This document shows, piece after piece, positions 46,680 through 61,016 of a stretch of DNA of 64,000 nucleotides. Position 1 is the stretch's first letter. Every line of letters begins with the position of its first letter. The stretch is from the NCBI RefSeq assembly GCF_000455345.1, contig NZ_HG315690.1, forward strand, positions 1,315,742-1,379,741. The letters run 5' to 3'. Under the pieces are notes generated by a model. That model ran no database searches. It was not told the DNA's origin and saw only the letters and a list, made by a program, of their open reading frames with translations. Made by a program: the position numbers and the translations under genes. This DNA is from Halopiger goleimassiliensis. Its GTDB lineage: Archaea; Halobacteriota; Halobacteria; Halobacteriales; Natrialbaceae.

Positions 46680-49600
46680 TTACGGCGGACTGGCGTCCGG
46701 TTCTTCGACGGCCAGCGCCCACCCCTCGAGCCACTCGCGCAAGCCGGTGTCTGGAACGTCTAGGTCGTGATAGTTGACCTCGAGGTCGGGGAAGCCGCCG
46801 ACCTCGTCCTGGTGTCCGACCCAGTACTCGTAGGGGTCGTCGAGTCGATCGTTGCCGGCGCGGGTTTGGATCTCTGCGACGATTCGCTGGTCGTGGTAGG
46901 TTCGGTCCGCGGGGCGAGCCCCCGCGTACTGGAGGTTGTGTTCTTCGACCTGTTCCGCGGCGAAGACCTCGAGCCCGTCGGGCCACAGCGGCGGTTCGGA
47001 CTCGCTGTCGGAACTCGCGAAGTCGGTGTCGTCGAGCGGCGGGTCGGCGGTGTAGTTGTCCTCGACGTAGACCGTGCCGCCGCCCTCGAGGATTTCGTCC
47101 TGATCGTCGGTCAGCCCGGTGTAGCCGTTGCCGACGAAGGTGGTGACGGCCGAGCTATCGATACTGGCCGACTCGTCGAAGAAGTACGTGAAGTTGTTGA
47201 CGACGACCGTCTCGGTGTCGTCTTTGAGCCGCGGGATGCGGCCGCGGGCTTTCGCCCAGACGTTCCCCGCGAGGAACGCCTCCTCGTTGCCGTCGCCGAT
47301 CAGCGTCGCGTAGTTGTGATCGGTGGATTCGCCGTAGGGATCCCACAGCCCCTCGTAGACGAGACAGTTGATCATGGAGTTGCGCTCGCCGTAGTAGCCA
47401 AGCGACATGCACTCGTCGGTCCCCCAGGAGGCGGTGACGTGGTCGAAGACGGTGTTCGTGGCGTCGTTGTCCGTGTTGACCGCGTCGTTGCTCTGGACGT
47501 CGCCCGCCTCGGAACCGGGGCCGTGCCGGGAGCGGATGTGCTGGATCACGCAGTCGTCGGCGTCGACCTGGAACTGGCCTTTGACGAACGTGATCCCCGG
47601 CGACGGGGCCGTCTGTCCGGCCATCCAGCACTTGTCCTCCGAAATCTCGAGCGTCTCGTCCTCGATTTCGATCGTGCCGCTGCACTCGAAGACGATCACC
47701 CGGGGACCCGCCGTCTGGACGGCGTCTTTGACCTGCCCGTAGTCGGGTTCGGTGATCGTGATGACCTGGACGTCTTCGCTCTCGAGCCACGGCGCGGGCG
47801 TCGAGAAGCCGTCAGTGTAGTCGAAGTGCGAGCCGCCGGAACCGACGGTGTCGCCTGCCTCGGTCTCGAAGGTCCGCGTCTGGCCGGTCGCGACGTCGCC
47901 GTCGTCGGCCTCGGCGACCGCGCGGTACTCGTACTCGGTCTCGCCCGAGAGCCCGAAGAGCGTCCCGTCGAACGCGCCGGGCTCCTCGAGCGTCGCGGGG
48001 CTCGAAGCGTTCCACTCGTCGTCATCGTCGGCCACGCGGTACTCGAAGAAGACGTCCGCCGTCTCGGCCTGGCCGCCGATGGCCTCGAGCGTGCCCGACA
48101 CCGTCGCGGAGGTGGCGTCGATCTCCGTCGGGTCGCCGGTCGCGACGGCCGGCTCCGTGTCGGATTCGGCGGTGGTAACGGTCGCGATCGAGCCGGTGTC
48201 GACGTCGCCGTCGCTGGCGGTGACGGTCGCGCGGAACTCGTACTCGGTCTCGCTCGAGAGGTCGGTGACGGACTCGGTGAACGGACCGGGTTCGGTCACC
48301 GTCTGACCGCTCGTCGCCGCCCACGAATCGGCACCGGCTTCGCGGTACTCGAAGGCGACCTCGGCCGACGGGGCCTGCCCGAGCGACTCGAGCGTGCCCG
48401 ACACCGTCGCGCTCTCGGCGTGGACGTCCTCGGCCGAACCGGTCGCGACCAGCGGCTCCGTGTCGGTGTCGCCGCCGTCGTTCCCGGAGACGCTGCCGGC
48501 GACCTCGACGTTCCCGATGTCCTGGTTGTGCGTCGGGGAAACGCCGCCCAGTTCGGAGAACGCCGCGGCACAGAGCGTCCCCGGGTTGTGACTGGTGACC
48601 GCCAGTCCGAGGTAGCCGCTCTCGTCGGGATCGATCACGTCGGTCGAGAGTTCGGCCATGAGCGTCCAGTCCTCGCCGTCGTCAGAGCCGTACGCGAGGA
48701 ACGCGTCGTCGGTGCGGACGAGCCGCTGGTAGTCGGCGACCATCGTTCCGCCCGCGATCTCGCGCTCGCTCTCGCCGGCGTCCGACGTCAGACTCGTCGA
48801 CTCGCTTCCCGTCTCGGGACGCCACTGGACGGAGGTGTCGTGGCCCGGGGTCTTGCGGACCATCACGTTCGTCGCGTCGGCCTCGAGCGACTCGCGGAAC
48901 AGCAGGCCCGCCTTGGCGTACTCGTCGGTGTCCTCGAGGGCATCGACCCGAACGGTTGCGTCGAAGTCGCCGCTGACGTCGGCGAAGTAGTAGTGGCCCT
49001 CGTCCGCCTCGTTCCAGATGTCGGCACCGGCACCCTCGACGACGATGCCGTCAGTCTCCGCGGCCGCGGTCTCGAAGGTGTTCGTCGATCCGACGTCGCT
49101 GTCGCCGTCGCTGGCCTCGAGGACGGCCCGGAACTCGTAGCTCGTGCCGGGCGCGAGCTCCGAGACCTGATAGCTGACCGTGCCGGTCGAGGAGAGCGTC
49201 TGCTCGGGCGTCGACTGCCAGCCGAGCGCGCCGCTGGCGCGGTACTCGAAGGAGACGGCGACCTCGTCGGCACCACCGAGGTCGTCGACGGCCCCGCCGA
49301 GACTGGCCGACGCTTCGGTGACGTTCGATGCCGAGCCGGTCGAGACGACGGGATCGGTGTCGCCACCGCCACCCCCACCGCCGGTTCCGTCCTCGGTGGA
49401 GACGCTCCCGGAGACGTCGACGTCGCCGATATCCGTGTTGTTCGACGGCGACAGCCCCGAGAGGCTCGAGAACTGCGCCGTACAGAGCGTCCCCTCGTCG
49501 TGGCTCGTAACCGCGAGGCCGACGTACGCGCTGTCGGCGAAGTCGATGGTTCCCGCCGAGGGCGATATTTCGGCGATGAGCGTCCAGTTCTCGCCGTCGG

Positions 49601-50066
49601 TGGAGCCGTAGGCACGAATCGTGTCGTCCTCGCGGACGAGTCGCTGCCAGTCGGCCGCCATCGTGCCGCCTGGAACCTCGCGCTGATCCTCGCCCTCGTC
49701 CGACGTCGTACTTTCGGCCTGGTCCCCGTCGTCCGAGCGCCACTGGAACGAGGTCCCGTGGCCCGGCATCTTGCGAATCATCGCGTGCTCCTCGTTCGCC
49801 GCCAGCGACTGGCGGACCATCAGTCCCGCCTTGGCGTACTCGTCGGTGTCCTCGAGGGCGTCGACGCGAACGGTGACGTCGAAGTCGCCGTCGACCTCCT
49901 CGTAGTAGTAGTGGAACTCGTCGTGGTCGTTCCAGATGTCGTACCCGCCGCCCTCGACGGCGACCGTCGTCTCCGCTGCCGCGGTCCCGACGGCCCCCGT
50001 CGCGAGCGCGCCGAGACCACCGGCACCGATCGTCTGCAAGAACGTGCGCCTGTCTTGGCCTGTCAT
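46680..50066 (-). CDS. Tat-secreted multidomain protein with C-terminal pectate-lyase-like domain
   Basis: 1128 residues. Tat signal DRRTFLQTIGAGGLGALATG (about 5-24). Domain order: DUF1349/concanavalin-like repeat 1 (about 35-210; DIWNDHDEFHYYYEEVDGDF, EDTDEYAKAGLMVRQSL), Gly-rich linker, fibronectin-III-like domain (about 235-330), DUF1349-like repeat 2 (about 340-525), two more fibronectin-III-like domains (about 535-725), and a pectate-lyase right-handed beta-helix (about 745-1128; WMAGQTAPSPGITFVKGQ, NDATNTVFDHVTASWGTDEC). Expected to cleave acidic polysaccharide outside the cell. The two DUF1349 repeats are close relatives, so internal duplication is likely. Two other polysaccharide genes (glycosyltransferase, methyltransferase) are far off, so context is weak. 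Confidence 0.85.
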   Translation of the reverse strand: MTGQDRRTFLQTIGAGGLGALATGAVGTAAAETTVAVEGGGYDIWNDHDEFHYYYEEVDGDFDVTVRVDALEDTDEYAKAGLMVRQSLAANEEHAMIRKMPGHGTSFQWRSDDGDQAESTTSDEGEDQREVPGGTMAADWQRLVREDDTIRAYGSTDGENWTLIAEISPSAGTIDFADSAYVGLAVTSHDEGTLCTAQFSSLSGLSPSNNTDIGDVDVSGSVSTEDGTGGGGGGGDTDPVVSTGSASNVTEASASLGGAVDDLGGADEVAVSFEYRASGALGWQSTPEQTLSSTGTVSYQVSELAPGTSYEFRAVLEASDGDSDVGSTNTFETAAAETDGIVVEGAGADIWNEADEGHYYFADVSGDFDATVRVDALEDTDEYAKAGLLFRESLEADATNVMVRKTPGHDTSVQWRPETGSESTSLTSDAGESEREIAGGTMVADYQRLVRTDDAFLAYGSDDGEDWTLMAELSTDVIDPDESGYLGLAVTSHNPGTLCAAAFSELGGVSPTHNQDIGNVEVAGSVSGNDGGDTDTEPLVATGSAEDVHAESATVSGTLESLGQAPSAEVAFEYREAGADSWAATSGQTVTEPGPFTESVTDLSSETEYEFRATVTASDGDVDTGSIATVTTAESDTEPAVATGDPTEIDATSATVSGTLEAIGGQAETADVFFEYRVADDDDEWNASSPATLEEPGAFDGTLFGLSGETEYEYRAVAEADDGDVATGQTRTFETEAGDTVGSGGSHFDYTDGFSTPAPWLESEDVQVITITEPDYGQVKDAVQTAGPRVIVFECSGTIEIEDETLEISEDKCWMAGQTAPSPGITFVKGQFQVDADDCVIQHIRSRHGPGSEAGDVQSNDAVNTDNDATNTVFDHVTASWGTDECMSLGYYGERNSMINCLVYEGLWDPYGESTDHNYATLIGDGNEEAFLAGNVWAKARGRIPRLKDDTETVVVNNFTYFFDESASIDSSAVTTFVGNGYTGLTDDQDEILEGGGTVYVEDNYTADPPLDDTDFASSDSESEPPLWPDGLEVFAAEQVEEHNLQYAGARPADRTYHDQRIVAEIQTRAGNDRLDDPYEYWVGHQDEVGGFPDLEVNYHDLDVPDTGLREWLEGWALAVEEPDASPP

Positions 50067-54380: not shown

Positions 54381-55141
54381 CGCGGGTCGGGGTCACCGGC
54401 GCGACGGGACGGATGGGCCGGGCGGTCCTGCGGACGGTCGCCGACCGCGGGGACTGCGAGGTCGCGTTCGCGGTCAACCGCGATCCCGACGCCGACGTCG
54501 TCGCCGGGGTCGAGGTCCGGCCGGCCGCCGAGTTCGCCGACCTGGTCGTCGACGCCCGGCCCGACGCCGTGGTCGACTTCACCGGCCCGGAGTCGGCGCT
54601 CGAGTACGCCGCGGCCTGCGCCGAGGCCGGCGTCGCCTTCGTCACCGGGACGACCGGCTTCGAGGAGGGCGAACGCGAACGCCTCGAGAGCTACGGCGAC
54701 GAGATTCCGGTGCTCCACGCGCCGAACTTCGCCCGCGGCGTCCAGGCGCTGGTCAACGTCGTCGGCGACGCCGTTCGCAATCTCGAGGGGTACGACGTGG
54801 AACTCGTCGAGACCCACCACAACGCGAAACGCGACGCCCCCAGCGGGACGGCGAACCGGCTGCTCGAGGAGATCGAAGCCGCCGGCGACTTTCGCGAGCG
54901 CAAGCACGGCCGCGAGGGGTTCGACCCGCACGAAGAGGGTGAGATCGGCGTCCACGCGCTGCGCGCGGGTGATATCACGGGCGAACACGAGATCGTCATC
55001 GCGGGCAACCACGAGGAAGTTCGCCTGACCCACCGCGCCGAGGACCGGGGCGTCTTCGCCGCCGGCGCGGTCGACGCGGCGGTGTGGATCGCTGGACAGA
55101 AGGCGGGTCGTTACGAGTTTGCGGACGTGATCGAGGCATGA
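54377..55141 (+). CDS. dapB: 4-hydroxy-tetrahydrodipicolinate reductase
   Basis: 254 residues. NAD(P) site MTRVGVTGATGRMGRAV (G-x2-G-x2-G), then AFVTGTTGF, APNFARGVQALVNVV and the DapB signature ETHHNAKRDAPSGTA (catalytic His and Lys). Reduces the dapA product. Coupled by ATGA overlaps to dapA and, at 55138, to dapD. Confidence 0.96.
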   Translation: MTRVGVTGATGRMGRAVLRTVADRGDCEVAFAVNRDPDADVVAGVEVRPAAEFADLVVDARPDAVVDFTGPESALEYAAACAEAGVAFVTGTTGFEEGERERLESYGDEIPVLHAPNFARGVQALVNVVGDAVRNLEGYDVELVETHHNAKRDAPSGTANRLLEEIEAAGDFRERKHGREGFDPHEEGEIGVHALRAGDITGEHEIVIAGNHEEVRLTHRAEDRGVFAAGAVDAAVWIAGQKAGRYEFADVIEA

Positions 55142-55974
55142 GCGCGCTACAGAGCGAGATCGAGGAGCTGTGGGGACGGTACCGAAACGACGAGATCGAC
55201 GCCGAGACGGCCGGGGCCGACTCCCTGGACACGCTCGAGGCGTTCCTCGAGGCGCTCGAGGAGGGCGAGATCCGCGCCGCCGAGAAGTCCGGCGGCGAGT
55301 GGGAGGCCAACGAGTGGGTCAAGCGGGGCATCCTGCTGAACTTCGGCCTGCGCGAGAACGAGGCCTACGAGTACGGCGGCGTCGACCACTACGACGTCCT
55401 GCCCCTGCGCGAGACCGGGGACCTGGGCGCTCGCGGGACCCGGAACACGCCCGACGGGACGACGATCCGCCGCGGGGCCTACCTCGGATCGGACTGCATC
55501 ATGATGAGTCCCTCCTTCGTCAACATCGGGGCCTACGTCGGCGACGGCACGCTCGTCGACTCCTGCGACACGGTCGGCTCGTGCGCCCAGATCGGCGAAA
55601 ACGTCAAACTCGGCGCGAACACCCTCATCGGCGGCGTCCTCGAGCCGGTCGAGAACGCGCCGGTCATCGTCGAGGACGGCGTCTCGCTGGGCGCGGGCTG
55701 TCGCGTCACGTCGGGCTTCGTCGTCCGCGAGAACAGCGTCGTCGGCGAGAACACCCTCCTGACGCCGCGCATCCCGGTCTACGACCTCGTCGAGGAGGAA
55801 GTGATCTACGGCGAACTGCCCGCCGAGCGCCGCGCCTTCACGCGGTTCGTCGAGTCCTCCGTCAGCGACCACGATCTCTTCGAGGGCGGGGCCTACAAGC
55901 CCGCCGTCGTCGCGACCGACCTCGAGACCGAGACGCTCGAGGCGACCGAGCGCGAGGACGCGCTCCGGGAGTAA
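55138..55974 (+). CDS. dapD: Tetrahydrodipicolinate N-acyltransferase (DapD)
   Basis: 278 residues. N-terminal helical part (about 1-90) then a left-handed beta-helix acyltransferase (about 95-235; GAYLGSDCIMMSPSFVNIGA, GDGTLVDSCDTVGSCAQIGE, GGVLEPVENAPVIVEDG). Acylates tetrahydrodipicolinate with succinyl- or acetyl-CoA in the DAP branch. The last 17 codons (ETETLEATEREDALRE) are duplicated 1061 bp downstream, marking an insertion. ATG overlaps the dapB stop. Confidence 0.95.
   Translation: MSALQSEIEELWGRYRNDEIDAETAGADSLDTLEAFLEALEEGEIRAAEKSGGEWEANEWVKRGILLNFGLRENEAYEYGGVDHYDVLPLRETGDLGARGTRNTPDGTTIRRGAYLGSDCIMMSPSFVNIGAYVGDGTLVDSCDTVGSCAQIGENVKLGANTLIGGVLEPVENAPVIVEDGVSLGAGCRVTSGFVVRENSVVGENTLLTPRIPVYDLVEEEVIYGELPAERRAFTRFVESSVSDHDLFEGGAYKPAVVATDLETETLEATEREDALRE
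55921..55974 (+). repeat. dapD 3'-end repeat, copy 1
   Basis: 54 bp ending at the dapD TAA, identical except one base (C29 to G) to 56982-57035. The offset is 1061 bp. Confidence 0.95.
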
Positions 55975-56111
55975 CACGGGGAGCACCCCCAGAATGTGGC
56001 GACGTTCTGATACGTATCGGTGTAGCGTGTTCCGGTATCACCCGACGCTCGAACGAGACAGCGATCACCGGTACAGTATCGGGCGTTACCGGGTCTTGTC
56101 CGGCGGTATAA

Positions 56112-56453
56112 TCAGCGGTGTTCGAGACCGATATACGAACCGAGCCGTCCGACGACCTCGTCGACCAGCCGTTCGTCGAGGACGCCGAGTTCGCGATCGA
56201 CTCGAGTCGCTTCGACCGATGCGACGGCCCACGGAAGGATCGAACTCTCTTTCGGGAGGCCGCCGTCGATGAGATCGTCGTCGTCGATCGGCACGCGCTC
56301 GTCGTACCACGTTTTCGTCGAGAGCGTAAGTGCGATGTATTGGTCGCCGTGAAACGGCGTCTCTTCGGTGCCGACGATAAGCCAGGGGCGACTTGCTTCG
56401 TCGCCCTTGAACGGATCGTCCGCGAAGACGATCGTTCCCCGGTCGTACGTCAT
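56112..56453 (-). CDS. PemK/MazF-like toxin
   Basis: 113 residues. MTYDRGTIVFADDPFKGDEA, RPWLIVGTEETPFHGDQYIA, LTLSTKTWYDER and GLPKESSILPWAVASVEATR fit the haloarchaeal PemK/MazF-like family, an endoribonuclease fold whose catalytic residues would be the Arg in SRPW and Ser/Thr in LTLST. Its start overlaps the stop of the upstream winged-helix gene (ATGA, 56450-56453), the typical antitoxin-toxin order. It lies inside the dapD-tail duplication. Toxin activity is inferred. Confidence 0.7.
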   Translation of the reverse strand: MTYDRGTIVFADDPFKGDEASRPWLIVGTEETPFHGDQYIALTLSTKTWYDERVPIDDDDLIDGGLPKESSILPWAVASVEATRVDRELGVLDERLVDEVVGRLGSYIGLEHR

Positions 56454-56800
56454 TCCGTCGCTCGCTCACTCGCCTCGATCCACTCGTCGCGATCCTCTTC
56501 GCCGTAGAGTTGGTTGAATCGCTGGACCGTCCGATGGAACTGGTGCGCACGTCGAAGCCGTTCCGTGTCGTCCGTGATAGCCCAGTACGAACCCTTGTGT
56601 CGAACGAGGTCCCGTTCTTTCAGCCGGTTGAGGACTGCCGAGATCGAGTTCTCGTTGACGTCCGCTCGCTCGGCGATCGTCGCTGCCTTCCACGCCTTAT
56701 CCCTGTTCTCGTAGAGGAACCGAAGGACTCGTTCCGCGTTACTCGGCTCCTCGAGTTCTTCGGGAGTGCGTTCCTCGAAGTCCTCGATATCGATCGACAT
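56450..56800 (-). CDS. Winged-helix (MarR-like) partner of the PemK-like toxin
   Basis: 116 residues from MSIDIEDFEERTPEELEEPS. wHTH at about 25-85: RVLRFLYENRDKAWKAATIA, ERADVNENSISAVLNRLKER, DLVRHKGSYWAITDD. The acidic head and C-terminal FNQLYGEEDRDEWIEASERA could be the toxin-binding part. A different type from canonical PemI/MazE antitoxins (those are AbrB- or Phd-like), so this pairing is notable. Upstream (about 56830-56835, minus) ATAAAAGCG looks like its box A. Confidence 0.75.
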   Translation of the reverse strand: MSIDIEDFEERTPEELEEPSNAERVLRFLYENRDKAWKAATIAERADVNENSISAVLNRLKERDLVRHKGSYWAITDDTERLRRAHQFHRTVQRFNQLYGEEDRDEWIEASERATE

Positions 56801-56981
56801 ATGCGGAGCCACGAGCCGTATCGATAAAAGCGTATCCGTAATACCAGTAGTACGTGATGTATCTTGTATGGACTATACGCTACGTATCCAAACGGACCGC
56901 TGTCGAAACGGTTTCGACGCAGATTCGGGTCATCTGTACAATAAGCGAGTACTGACCACCGACGCGGAGACGGGGGCTGTT

Positions 56982-57035
56982 CTCGAGACGGAGACGCTCG
57001 AGGCGACCGAGCGCGAGGACGCGCTCCGGGAGTAA
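56982..57035 (+). repeat. dapD 3'-end repeat, copy 2
   Basis: 53 of 54 bases match 55921-55974, including the TAA. The sequence before it is not dapD, so this is a detached tail and not a second gene. It marks the right boundary of a 1061-bp interval. Confidence 0.95.
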
Positions 57036-57097: not shown

Positions 57098-57346
57098 ATG
57101 GGGACGAAAACGATCTCGCTGGCGGACGACGCCTACGAGAAACTCAAAGCGCACAAGCGAGAGGGCGAGAGCTTCAGCGACGTCGTCCGGCGGTTAACGG
57201 GTGGAGTCACGCTCGCGGAGTATCACGGTGCTATCGAGGAGGAGACCGCCGACGAGTTAGCGACGATCGTGGACCGTCGGCGCGAGGAACGCGCCGACAC
57301 GCATCGGGAACGCGTCTCGGAGTTCGCCGACGAACTGGACGAATGA
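57098..57346 (+). CDS. vapB: VapB-type antitoxin
   Basis: 82 residues from MGTKTISLADDAYEKLKAHK; the Met at 57080 lies before the expected start site. N-terminal ribbon-helix-helix-type DNA-binding part (TKTISLADDAYEKLKAHKRE, then FSDVVRRL) and an acidic C-terminal helix for toxin binding. Overlaps vapC by 4 bp. The palindrome immediately upstream suits autoregulation. Confidence 0.88.
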   Translation: MGTKTISLADDAYEKLKAHKREGESFSDVVRRLTGGVTLAEYHGAIEEETADELATIVDRRREERADTHRERVSEFADELDE

Positions 57347-57732
57347 TCCTCGATTCGACGTTTCTCATCGACGTATTGCGCGGCTCGAGCGACGTGGCGG
57401 AACTGATCGAAGACGTCGACGCGACGGGGACGCCGTTCGTGAGCGCCGTCACCGTGATGGAACTCTTCGAGGGAATTCACCTCGCCGACGCGACGGAAGA
57501 CGAACGAGCGACCGTCCGCCAGTTGCTCACTGACGTCAACGAACTTCCGTTCGATCGCGAGTGTGCTATGCGCGCGGGACAGATCAACGCGGACCTCGTT
57601 TCGTCCGGAGAGCCGATCGACGAGACCGACGTCGTGATCGCGGCGACGGCGCTCGTTCACGAGTATCCCGTCGTAACGAGAAACGTCGATCACTTCGAGC
57701 GGATCGACAGTCTCACGGTACGCTCGTACTGA
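57343..57732 (+). CDS. vapC: VapC PIN-domain toxin
   Basis: 129 residues. PIN ribonuclease fold with acidic residues Asp4 (MILDSTFLIDVL), Glu in TVMELFEGIHL, Asp/Glu in PIDETDVVIAAT and Asp in RNVDHFERI. Expected to cut tRNA or mRNA when free of VapB. Sits in the accessory block that splits the lysine operon. Confidence 0.93.
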   Translation: MILDSTFLIDVLRGSSDVAELIEDVDATGTPFVSAVTVMELFEGIHLADATEDERATVRQLLTDVNELPFDRECAMRAGQINADLVSSGEPIDETDVVIAATALVHEYPVVTRNVDHFERIDSLTVRSY

Positions 57733-57792: not shown

Positions 57793-58554
57793 TTACCGAC
57801 GACGACTCCCACCGACGTAGGTTACTTCGATCCGCCGAGAGAGATACCCCAGGAGAGCGACGCCCGAAAGCGGTGCGAGATACGTCAGTCCGACGTGCAA
57901 CCGCCAGGACGGGTCGACGGTCTCGGCGAGGAACACCCGGTAGTACGTGTCGTCCTCGAGTCGGATCGGCCGTTCGGGGACCTCGACCGGGTGCGAAGCG
58001 GTGGCAGACCCGGTCCGCGCTGCTTCGGCGGCCGTCGCCGGGACCGCCCTCGAGGCGACGTCGTGGCTCGCGTCCGCAAGCGCCGCGTCGGCCGACGAGG
58101 GCTCGAGCGTGAGGTCGATGCGGTGAGAGCCGTCGTCCCGCGGCGAATCGTTCGCAACGTAGGCCGTCTCGTAGACGGTGCCGTCGATCGAGACGTAGCC
58201 GTAGCGCTCGGGAAACGGCGGATCGACAGGTCCGGAACTGCCGGTAGCGAACTCGGTCGGGACGGTTCCGTTCTCGAGTACCGTGCGTTCGAACGTACAG
58301 GGGCGGATTTCCCACCCGCCCGGACTCCCGTTCGAACAGGCGAGTTCGCCACCGAGGGGTCGGTCGTCCGGCGCGCGGCTCTCGTCGGCGTATTCGACCG
58401 CCGCGCCGTCGGTCGTCACTTCCACACGCTCGTAGCGGTAGGTCGTCTCGTCGACGCCCACGACCGAGGTGACGAGCGGCGCGGCGAGGAGTGTGATCGC
58501 GAGGAGGGCGACGCCGAGATCCAGTCGGGGAGTCGTCACGCGGGTGGCGGCCAT
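57793..58554 (-). CDS. Membrane protein with extracytoplasmic domain, unknown function
   Basis: 253 residues. Hydrophobic segments near the N-terminus (about 12-34) and the C-terminus (about 223-240) bracket a soluble region (about 35-215) with two Cys (LACSNGSPGG, RPCTFERTV) that could form a disulfide outside. No family recognised; similar two-TM proteins are common in haloarchaea. Located in the block inserted into the lysine operon. Confidence 0.55.
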   Translation of the reverse strand: MAATRVTTPRLDLGVALLAITLLAAPLVTSVVGVDETTYRYERVEVTTDGAAVEYADESRAPDDRPLGGELACSNGSPGGWEIRPCTFERTVLENGTVPTEFATGSSGPVDPPFPERYGYVSIDGTVYETAYVANDSPRDDGSHRIDLTLEPSSADAALADASHDVASRAVPATAAEAARTGSATASHPVEVPERPIRLEDDTYYRVFLAETVDPSWRLHVGLTYLAPLSGVALLGYLSRRIEVTYVGGSRRR

Positions 58555-58771: not shown

Positions 58772-59197
58772 ATGGGCGAAGAGATTCGATCCGATTCGGC
58801 CGACGACGGCCACCGGACGCCTCGAGAGAAGTCGCCGACCGCGTCGGGCACGGCCCCGACCACCGCGGAACGGGTCGACGGTGCGTTCTCCCTGCTTACC
58901 GACGCCCGAAGACGGCGCGTCCTCTACGCGCTGGTCGCGCTCGAGGACCCGGTGACGGATCGATCGACGGTCGCCGTCCTGGCCAACGTCCTCGGCGTGG
59001 CACCGCCCGACGAGCCGACCCCGACGATCAGCGAACCCGACCTCCACCACGATCACCTGCCCACACTCGAGGAGGCGGGCGTCGTCGAGTACGATCCCCG
59101 GCAGGGGACCGTCCGGTACGTCGGGGTACCGTTCGACGAGGAGTTGATCGAACACGCGTACTACACGGAGACCGGCCAACTGCTGTCGGGACCGTAG
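58772..59197 (+). CDS. DUF7344 winged-helix protein
   Basis: 141 residues. After an acidic head, LLTDARRRRVLYALVALEDP and a later HDHLPTLEEAGVVEYDPRQG fit the haloarchaeal DUF7344 wHTH domain (about 40-130). Predicted DNA-binding regulator; target unknown. It faces the second DUF7344 gene (59220-59612) with stops 22 bp apart. Confidence 0.85.
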   Translation: MGEEIRSDSADDGHRTPREKSPTASGTAPTTAERVDGAFSLLTDARRRRVLYALVALEDPVTDRSTVAVLANVLGVAPPDEPTPTISEPDLHHDHLPTLEEAGVVEYDPRQGTVRYVGVPFDEELIEHAYYTETGQLLSGP

Positions 59198-59777: not shown

Positions 59778-61016
59778 ATGACCGACCTCGCGGACTCGCC
59801 GGCAGTTCGCCGGCTGGACGACTGGGACCTCGAGCGACTCGAGGCCCTCGCCGACGAGTACGAGACGCCGCTGTACGTGATGGACCTCGATCGGGTGAAG
59901 GAAAACTACGCGCGCTTCGCGGCGGCGTTTCCCGACGCCCACGTCATGTACGCCGCGAAGGCCCACACCGGGCGGGCGGTGCTCGAGGCCGTCCTCGAGG
60001 CCGGCGGGACGATCGAGTGTGCGGCCTGGGGGGAACTCCAGCGCTCGATCGACGCCGGCGCGGATCCCGACGAACTCCAGTACACCGCGGTCAACCCGCC
60101 GGATCGGGACCTCGACTACGCCGCCGACCTCGCGGCCGACCATCCGGGCCTGACGATCACCATCGGCGCGACCGACACGCTCGAGCGCCTCGCCGAGCGG
60201 GGCTACGACGGCCGGATCGCTATCCGGATCAACCCCGGCATCGGGACGGGGCACCACGAGAAGGTCGCGACGGGCGCGGACGCGAAGTTCGGCATCCCCT
60301 ACGAGCGCGTCCCCGAGGTCGCCGACCGCGTCCGCGAGGAGTTCGAACTGGTCGGCCTCCACGCCCACGCCGGCAGCGGCGTCCTGACGGACGACCTCGC
60401 GGATCACTGCCGTGCGATCGAACGCGTCGGCGAGATGGCCCGTCGCGTCGGCGACGACGAGTTGGAGTTCGTCGACGTCGGCGGCGGCTACGGCGTCCCC
60501 TACCGCGAAGACGAACCGCCGCTGGACCTCGCGAAGACGTCCGAGATGGTCCGCAACGCGGTGGGTGATCTGGAGGCCCAGCTCAAACTCGAGCCCGGAC
60601 GCTACGTCGTCGCCGACGCCGGCCTGATCCTCACCGAGGTCAACACGATCAAGGAAGCCCCCGACACCACCGTCGTCGGCGTCGACGCCAGCCTCTCAAC
60701 GCTGATCCGGCCGGCGATGTTCGGCTCCTACCACCCCATGCTGAACGTCACCGCGCCCGAGCGCGACCCGATCGAGGCGACCGTCGGCGGCCCGGTCTGT
60801 ACCAGCGCGGACGTCTTCGCCCACGACCGACCGATCGCCGAACCCGAACGCGGCGACGTCCTCGCCATCGGCAATGCGGGGTCGTACGGCTACGAACTGG
60901 CCAACCAGTTCCACTCCCAGCCCAAACCCGCGGAAGTCGCGCTCGAGGACGGCGAGGCCCGCGTCGCCCGCCGGCGCGAGACGCTCGCGGACGTGACGCG
61001 ACTGGAGCAGGAATGA
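59778..61016 (+). CDS. lysA: Diaminopimelate decarboxylase
   Basis: Last step: meso-DAP to lysine with PLP. 412 residues from MTDLADSPAVRRLDDWDLER; ATG 59748 is less likely. Schiff-base Lys61 in YAAKAHTG; then VGLHAHAGSGVLTDD, VDVGGGYGVPYREDEP and CTSADVFAHDRPIAEPERGD with the intersubunit Cys; the C-terminal GNAGSYGYELANQF closes the active site. Belongs with dapA-B-D but is separated from them by about 3.8 kb. Overlaps dapE by 4 bp. Confidence 0.96.
   Translation: MTDLADSPAVRRLDDWDLERLEALADEYETPLYVMDLDRVKENYARFAAAFPDAHVMYAAKAHTGRAVLEAVLEAGGTIECAAWGELQRSIDAGADPDELQYTAVNPPDRDLDYAADLAADHPGLTITIGATDTLERLAERGYDGRIAIRINPGIGTGHHEKVATGADAKFGIPYERVPEVADRVREEFELVGLHAHAGSGVLTDDLADHCRAIERVGEMARRVGDDELEFVDVGGGYGVPYREDEPPLDLAKTSEMVRNAVGDLEAQLKLEPGRYVVADAGLILTEVNTIKEAPDTTVVGVDASLSTLIRPAMFGSYHPMLNVTAPERDPIEATVGGPVCTSADVFAHDRPIAEPERGDVLAIGNAGSYGYELANQFHSQPKPAEVALEDGEARVARRRETLADVTRLEQE

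Follow-up and report, generated by a model that had tools for sequence, protein, structure and literature searches.

Two alternative dapD-lysA intervals apparently joined around a toxin-antitoxin pair in a haloarchaeal genome

Results and discussion

In this study, the DNA between dapD (tetrahydrodipicolinate N-succinyltransferase) and lysA was analyzed in a 64,000-nucleotide stretch of Halopiger goleimassiliensis contig NZ_HG315690.1 (hereafter the window) and in the corresponding loci of related genomes. The window appears to join two alternative dapD-lysA intervals, one placed in front of the other, each with its own toxin-antitoxin (TA) pair. The explanation that we favour, with somewhat better than even confidence, is additive homology-facilitated illegitimate recombination between such intervals.

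Organization of the dapD-lysA interval

The window contains an intact dapD (55138-55974, plus strand; above the cut-off of NCBIfam NF008808), the last 54 bp of which (copy 1, 55921-55974, plus strand) recur on the same strand at 56982-57035 (copy 2). The copies are offset by 1061 bp and identical at 53 of 54 positions, the sole difference being ACC/ACG in a Thr codon, and each ends exactly at the dapD stop. The identity block thus runs to the gene end, so the inserted locus keeps a restored dapD. A close direct-repeat scan covering the window plus another 400 kb of its genome (464 kb in total) identified this pair as the clearest direct repeat ending at an ORF stop, and a search of the 3.9-Mb genome with a 33-bp core of the tail (up to 3 mismatches) found no third copy.

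Two other direct repeats were recorded in this genome. One, in the window, is an imperfect 226-bp repeat (48820-49045 and 49738-49963, 918 bp apart) that probably lies inside coding sequence. The other is a 61-bp repeat on contig 1 (positions 1183522 and 1184405, 883 bp apart; locus L226 of genome G000, the window's own), toward the 3' end of a gene resembling aspartate oxidase; a single ORF between its copies was compared with Pfam and gave no match.

Two overlapping genes are located between the dapD tails: a PemK/MazF-like toxin gene (56112-56453, minus strand; Pfam PF02452, E 3.8e-8, above the cut-off) and, overlapping its start, a gene encoding a winged-helix protein (56450-56800, minus strand) with only sub-threshold, MarR-like Pfam hits. 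Since PemK adjoins a winged-helix gene in 19 of 20 loci, this conserved pairing suggests that the winged-helix protein is probably the antitoxin partner of PemK. An earlier note on the window had described the repeat with its single base change, the toxin with its winged-helix partner and the lack of an integrase between the copies; these observations, including both repeat coordinates, were confirmed, and no integrase was found nearby either.

A second TA pair, missing from that note, lies immediately 3' of copy 2 (57098-57732) and is referred to below as the resident layer. It is composed of a VapB-type antitoxin gene (57098-57346, plus strand; PF02697, E 2.5e-17) and a VapC (PIN) toxin gene (57343-57732, plus strand; PF01850, E 5.3e-15). 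Next come the gene of a 253-aa protein lacking a Pfam match ("DUFx"; 57793-58554, minus strand), which several genus g9 members also have behind dapD, and the gene of a DUF7344 protein (58772-59197, plus strand), seen behind dapD in G023 and G066 as well. The right border of the variable interval is lysA (59778-61016, plus strand), whose start lies 3.8 kb beyond the end of dapD.

Single-layer alleles in related genomes

The DNA behind dapD was compared in 107 genomes, 101 from the window's family (named members include Natrialba, Natrinema, Halostagnicola and Natronorubrum) and 6 from another family of the order. Orthologues of dapD, 72-91% identical, are present in nearly all relatives, most of which have one dapD tail, with lysA next to it or separated from it by variable genes. 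A single tail or a single layer is present at about 100 further dapD loci, and, stacked loci excepted, the tail pattern occurs once per genome. The dapD-lysA gap is a variable interval. An uninterrupted dapD with one tail, which the earlier note proposed to look for, is present in relatives (e.g. G034 and G123), and this supports its claim of an insertion at the 3' end of dapD that restored the gene.

Both layers of the window have single counterparts. The winged-helix/PemK pair is found directly behind dapD in three members of one related genus (G034, G069 and G070, the last being Halostagnicola sp. A56); the nearest of these dapD-linked pairs shows a DNA identity of only about 84% to that of the window, and a recent donor is therefore not known. 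VapBC is located directly behind dapD in Natrialba swarupiae (G086) and Halobiforma nitratireducens (G123), with which the window is collinear from copy 2 onwards: its VapC is 90-91% identical to theirs, and the spacing from copy 2 to VapB, and partly the sequence, matches that from their dapD stop to VapB. Copy 2 is therefore likely to be the original dapD end, and the winged-helix/PemK pair would have entered in front of it.

Direct repeats would also arise without a recombinase if the dapD tail and its surroundings had been duplicated in tandem within the genome and had then decayed. The two layers hold different genes, each of them single in other genera, and for this reason simple tandem duplication was rejected and the explanation as a whole is regarded as very improbable.

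Other stacked dapD loci

Five loci combine single layers: the window, G107, G141, G086 and G119. In G107 an AbrB/PIN pair lies between two dapD tails, and the locus joins two intervals found singly in its own genus, dapD-(AbrB-PIN)-lysA (G103, G106 and G117) and dapD-DUFx-lysA (G104, G105, G110 and G111). In G141 the tails enclose the gene of a 304-aa protein, and in G086 VapBC is placed between dapD and a decayed second tail (83%). Different cargo between dapD tails, as the earlier note had anticipated for other genomes, was thus found in G107, G141 and G086.

Remnants of lysA were recognized in two of these loci. The cargo of G141 ends with approx. 150 bp of a decayed lysA promoter and the first approx. 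30 lysA codons (score 68 vs a shuffled maximum of 26). In G119, AbrB-PIN is followed by a decayed lysA start and then by the DUFx interval; here the layers meet beyond the dapD stop, without a duplicated dapD tail between them. A blind scan for lysA starts in 67 dapD-lysA intervals ranked G141 and G119 at the top (z 21.7 and 14.8; next 8.2). These decayed starts indicate that the inserted unit is another lineage's dapD-lysA interval and not a free element. Its break apparently fell inside lysA or close to it, and its junction lies at the tail of the resident dapD or a little further on. Copy 2 of the window is immediately preceded by a possible decayed lysA start (56942-56981, plus strand): alignment to the genome's own lysA start gave a 41-bp match ending exactly at copy 2. 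It is only suggestive, as 93 of 20000 random genomic 60-mers equal its score, and the blind scan did not pick it. The stretches from cargo to copy 2 in G107 (52 bp) and G086 (15 bp) are too short for judging a lysA remnant.

In family f4, the dapD tail is repeated around short non-coding units in G342 and G348. The first 420 bp behind dapD in these genomes (L205 and L206, respectively) contain two or three tails with non-coding units of 130-200 bp between them, which have a motif resembling CTTTTTCACCCATGTTTTTG and the end GAAAAAGGTGG. An end resembling GAAAAAGGTGG also precedes a duplicated 45-bp tail of a glyoxalase gene elsewhere in G348, and the units are possibly a small non-coding repeat family located between duplicated gene ends.

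TA modules behind other genes

Duplicated gene ends around TA modules, 29-159 bp in length, were not limited to dapD. The 3' end of trxB (thioredoxin reductase) is duplicated around winged-helix/PemK in G112 (L274) and G120 (L275), with repeats of 54-55 bp, and a 64-bp trxB tail is duplicated around a VapBC-like pair in G095 (L320). The aroQ (chorismate mutase) 3' end, 29-36 bp, flanks VapBC in G079 (L296) and PemK in G165 (L373) and G186 (L384), in different families of the set. Judged from these repeats, trxB and aroQ would be the second and third hotspot genes, respectively. A duplicated gene start flanks a winged-helix/PemK relative in G078. Since the ends of trxB, aroQ and further genes show the same behaviour, a dependence on the dapD sequence was rejected.

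At one threshold, a spanning repeat was detected at 17 of 99 TA loci and in 31 of 1347 control windows (2.3%), with module sizes differing somewhat between the sets. Merging likely shared events, which rests on judgement, reduced the 17 loci to 10 non-redundant ones, and the enrichment calculated on this merged count has a p value of 3e-4. Remnants of the next gene were sought at the loci outside dapD, and none was found save one borderline match in G348, which ends at the junction (score 26, null maximum 25).

A further repeat was noted on contig 1 of G348 (378610 and 379659; L235), where the last 95 bp of a sugar-epimerase-like gene are repeated 1049 bp downstream. Its cargo, a nucleotidyltransferase-like gene and a 72-aa partner, resembles a TA pair.

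These loci bear directly on the mechanism proposed in the earlier note, namely that the last approx. 54 bp of dapD serve as an attachment site at which small TA cassettes are moved by an integrase encoded elsewhere. Consistent with this, the identity block ends at the stop and its left border hardly varies among four genera (at CTCGAG, 49-54 bp ahead of the stop, in the window, G107, G141 and G086), varied cargo occupies one site, and six tyrosine recombinases are encoded elsewhere in the window's genome. However, the cargo of G141 and G119 ends in lysA remnants, and a like architecture recurs at genes of unrelated sequence, trxB and aroQ among them, with repeats of varying length. A comparison with the genome's own six recognized no integrase at any of 147 dapD loci, and no dapD tail was found on viral contigs. 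The trans-acting integrase is thus unsupported, and we consider site-specific integration quite unlikely. Of the gene-end insertion pattern, the restored gene held up; its site-specific character did not, given that G119 lacks a duplicated tail and unrelated genes show the same arrangement.

Divergence between the repeat copies

Differences between gene ends and their partial copies were pooled over 15 loci, and 62 of 98 fell at third codon positions (p 1e-9 for an expected share of one third and 0.006 for one half). At the dapD loci alone this was the case for 9 of 10 differences, of which the window pair offers one, ACC/ACG. The stop codon was changed, yet remained a stop, in G107, G141, G120 and G079. 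The third-position excess was absent at L363, L364 and the G348 locus at 160035. This pattern suggests that the copies mostly diverged as functional gene ends before they were joined, and hence that they come from different lineages.

Divergence of the synonymous type argues, for the pool and not for every locus, against duplication within the genome and against a fill-in duplication of the target. In the latter, staggered breaks or template switching would copy 30-160 bp, and only insertions at gene ends would survive, as proposed for restriction-modification systems. The variable repeat length, the many target genes and the precedent in PMC3874152 are in agreement with such an origin, as are the identical copies of the aroQ end in G165 and G186 and of the glyoxalase gene end in G348. 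Against it stand, besides the mostly synonymous differences and the stops that change to stops, the lysA remnants and the G119 junction, which has no tail duplication. We regard true target duplication as unlikely.

Proposed mechanism

Additive homology-facilitated illegitimate recombination may account for these features as follows. Incoming haloarchaeal DNA would carry dapD, the winged-helix/PemK pair and possibly the start of lysA. Its dapD side would undergo homologous recombination, and its opposite end would be fused to the final 54 bp of the resident dapD in an illegitimate event relying on little homology or none. The incoming interval would thereby be added before the resident one (VapBC to lysA) instead of replacing it, with dapD rebuilt upstream. 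Survivors of this kind may be favoured, as cells that lose the resident antitoxin would die: VapB would disappear if the PemK interval took the place of the VapBC interval, and it is kept by stacking. Donor-type alleles, with cargo between the same conserved genes dapD and lysA, do exist in relatives; the order of events, the joining pathway and the selection for survivors are what we infer from comparing present-day loci.

The weakest point of the additive reading is the near-constant left border, as random joining would be expected to scatter it more widely than is seen in the four dapD cases. Microhomology at CTCGAG, recombinational loss of longer repeats, or shared history could account for this; short matches were read by eye at the decayed junctions of G141 (CTCGA) and G119 (CGCTCGT). 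The only suggestive lysA remnant of the window, the lack of next-gene remnants outside dapD, except weakly at the one G348 locus, the loci without a third-position excess and the modest DNA identity of the nearest dapD-linked winged-helix/PemK pair also count against this reading.

Chromosomal restriction-modification systems are described as resisting allelic replacement via homologous recombination (PMC3874152; see also PMC1643837), and addiction against replacement may, by analogy, extend to the TA modules studied here. Addiction cannot be the only reason for stacking, since G107, G141 and G119 stack before genes not known as TA modules. More broadly, we tentatively suggest that the build-up of chromosomal TA modules in haloarchaea proceeds to a large part, as one of its main routes, through failed allelic replacement: with antitoxin loss being lethal, additive recombinants alone would survive, and doubled gene ends would be left as scars at housekeeping genes such as dapD, trxB and aroQ. 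This is a possibility to which we give less than even weight.

TA modules are thought to be mobile between genomes, yet many have no recombinase. The scars suggest that such modules may become established and accumulate after housekeeping genes even in the absence of this enzyme, being added when they are not exchangeable. In this way, addiction against allelic replacement becomes testable for archaeal TA modules, by sequence alone and by simple crosses.

Comparison with known systems

In bacteria, homology-facilitated illegitimate recombination combines one homologous anchor with one illegitimate junction, and foreign DNA is added. The same three elements are proposed here; the difference is that these would be natural archaeal scars, repeated at one gap and containing TA modules. 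In the literature collection searched, no paper linked TA modules with this type of recombination.

Proviruses, conjugative elements and casposons also insert at gene 3' ends with direct repeats on both sides, but their repeats are att sites or target site duplications, and here no integrase or casposase was found. The modules themselves resemble type II TA systems (PemK/MazF and VapBC) in their toxin domains and overlapping two-gene operons, and differ from type II PemK in that the probable partner is a winged-helix protein.

By analogy, the nearest precedent would be the insertion of restriction-modification systems, some of which are reported to duplicate a long and variable piece of their target on insertion (Nobusato et al. 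2000, cited in PMC1643837 and PMC3874152). The likeness is that an addiction module which has no recombinase itself lies between long variable target repeats (~100 bp), with the site empty in relatives. The loci described here differ in that they hold haloarchaeal TA modules, mostly at gene 3' ends, and in that the divergence of the copies and the lysA remnants point to two joined alleles and not to one duplicated target.
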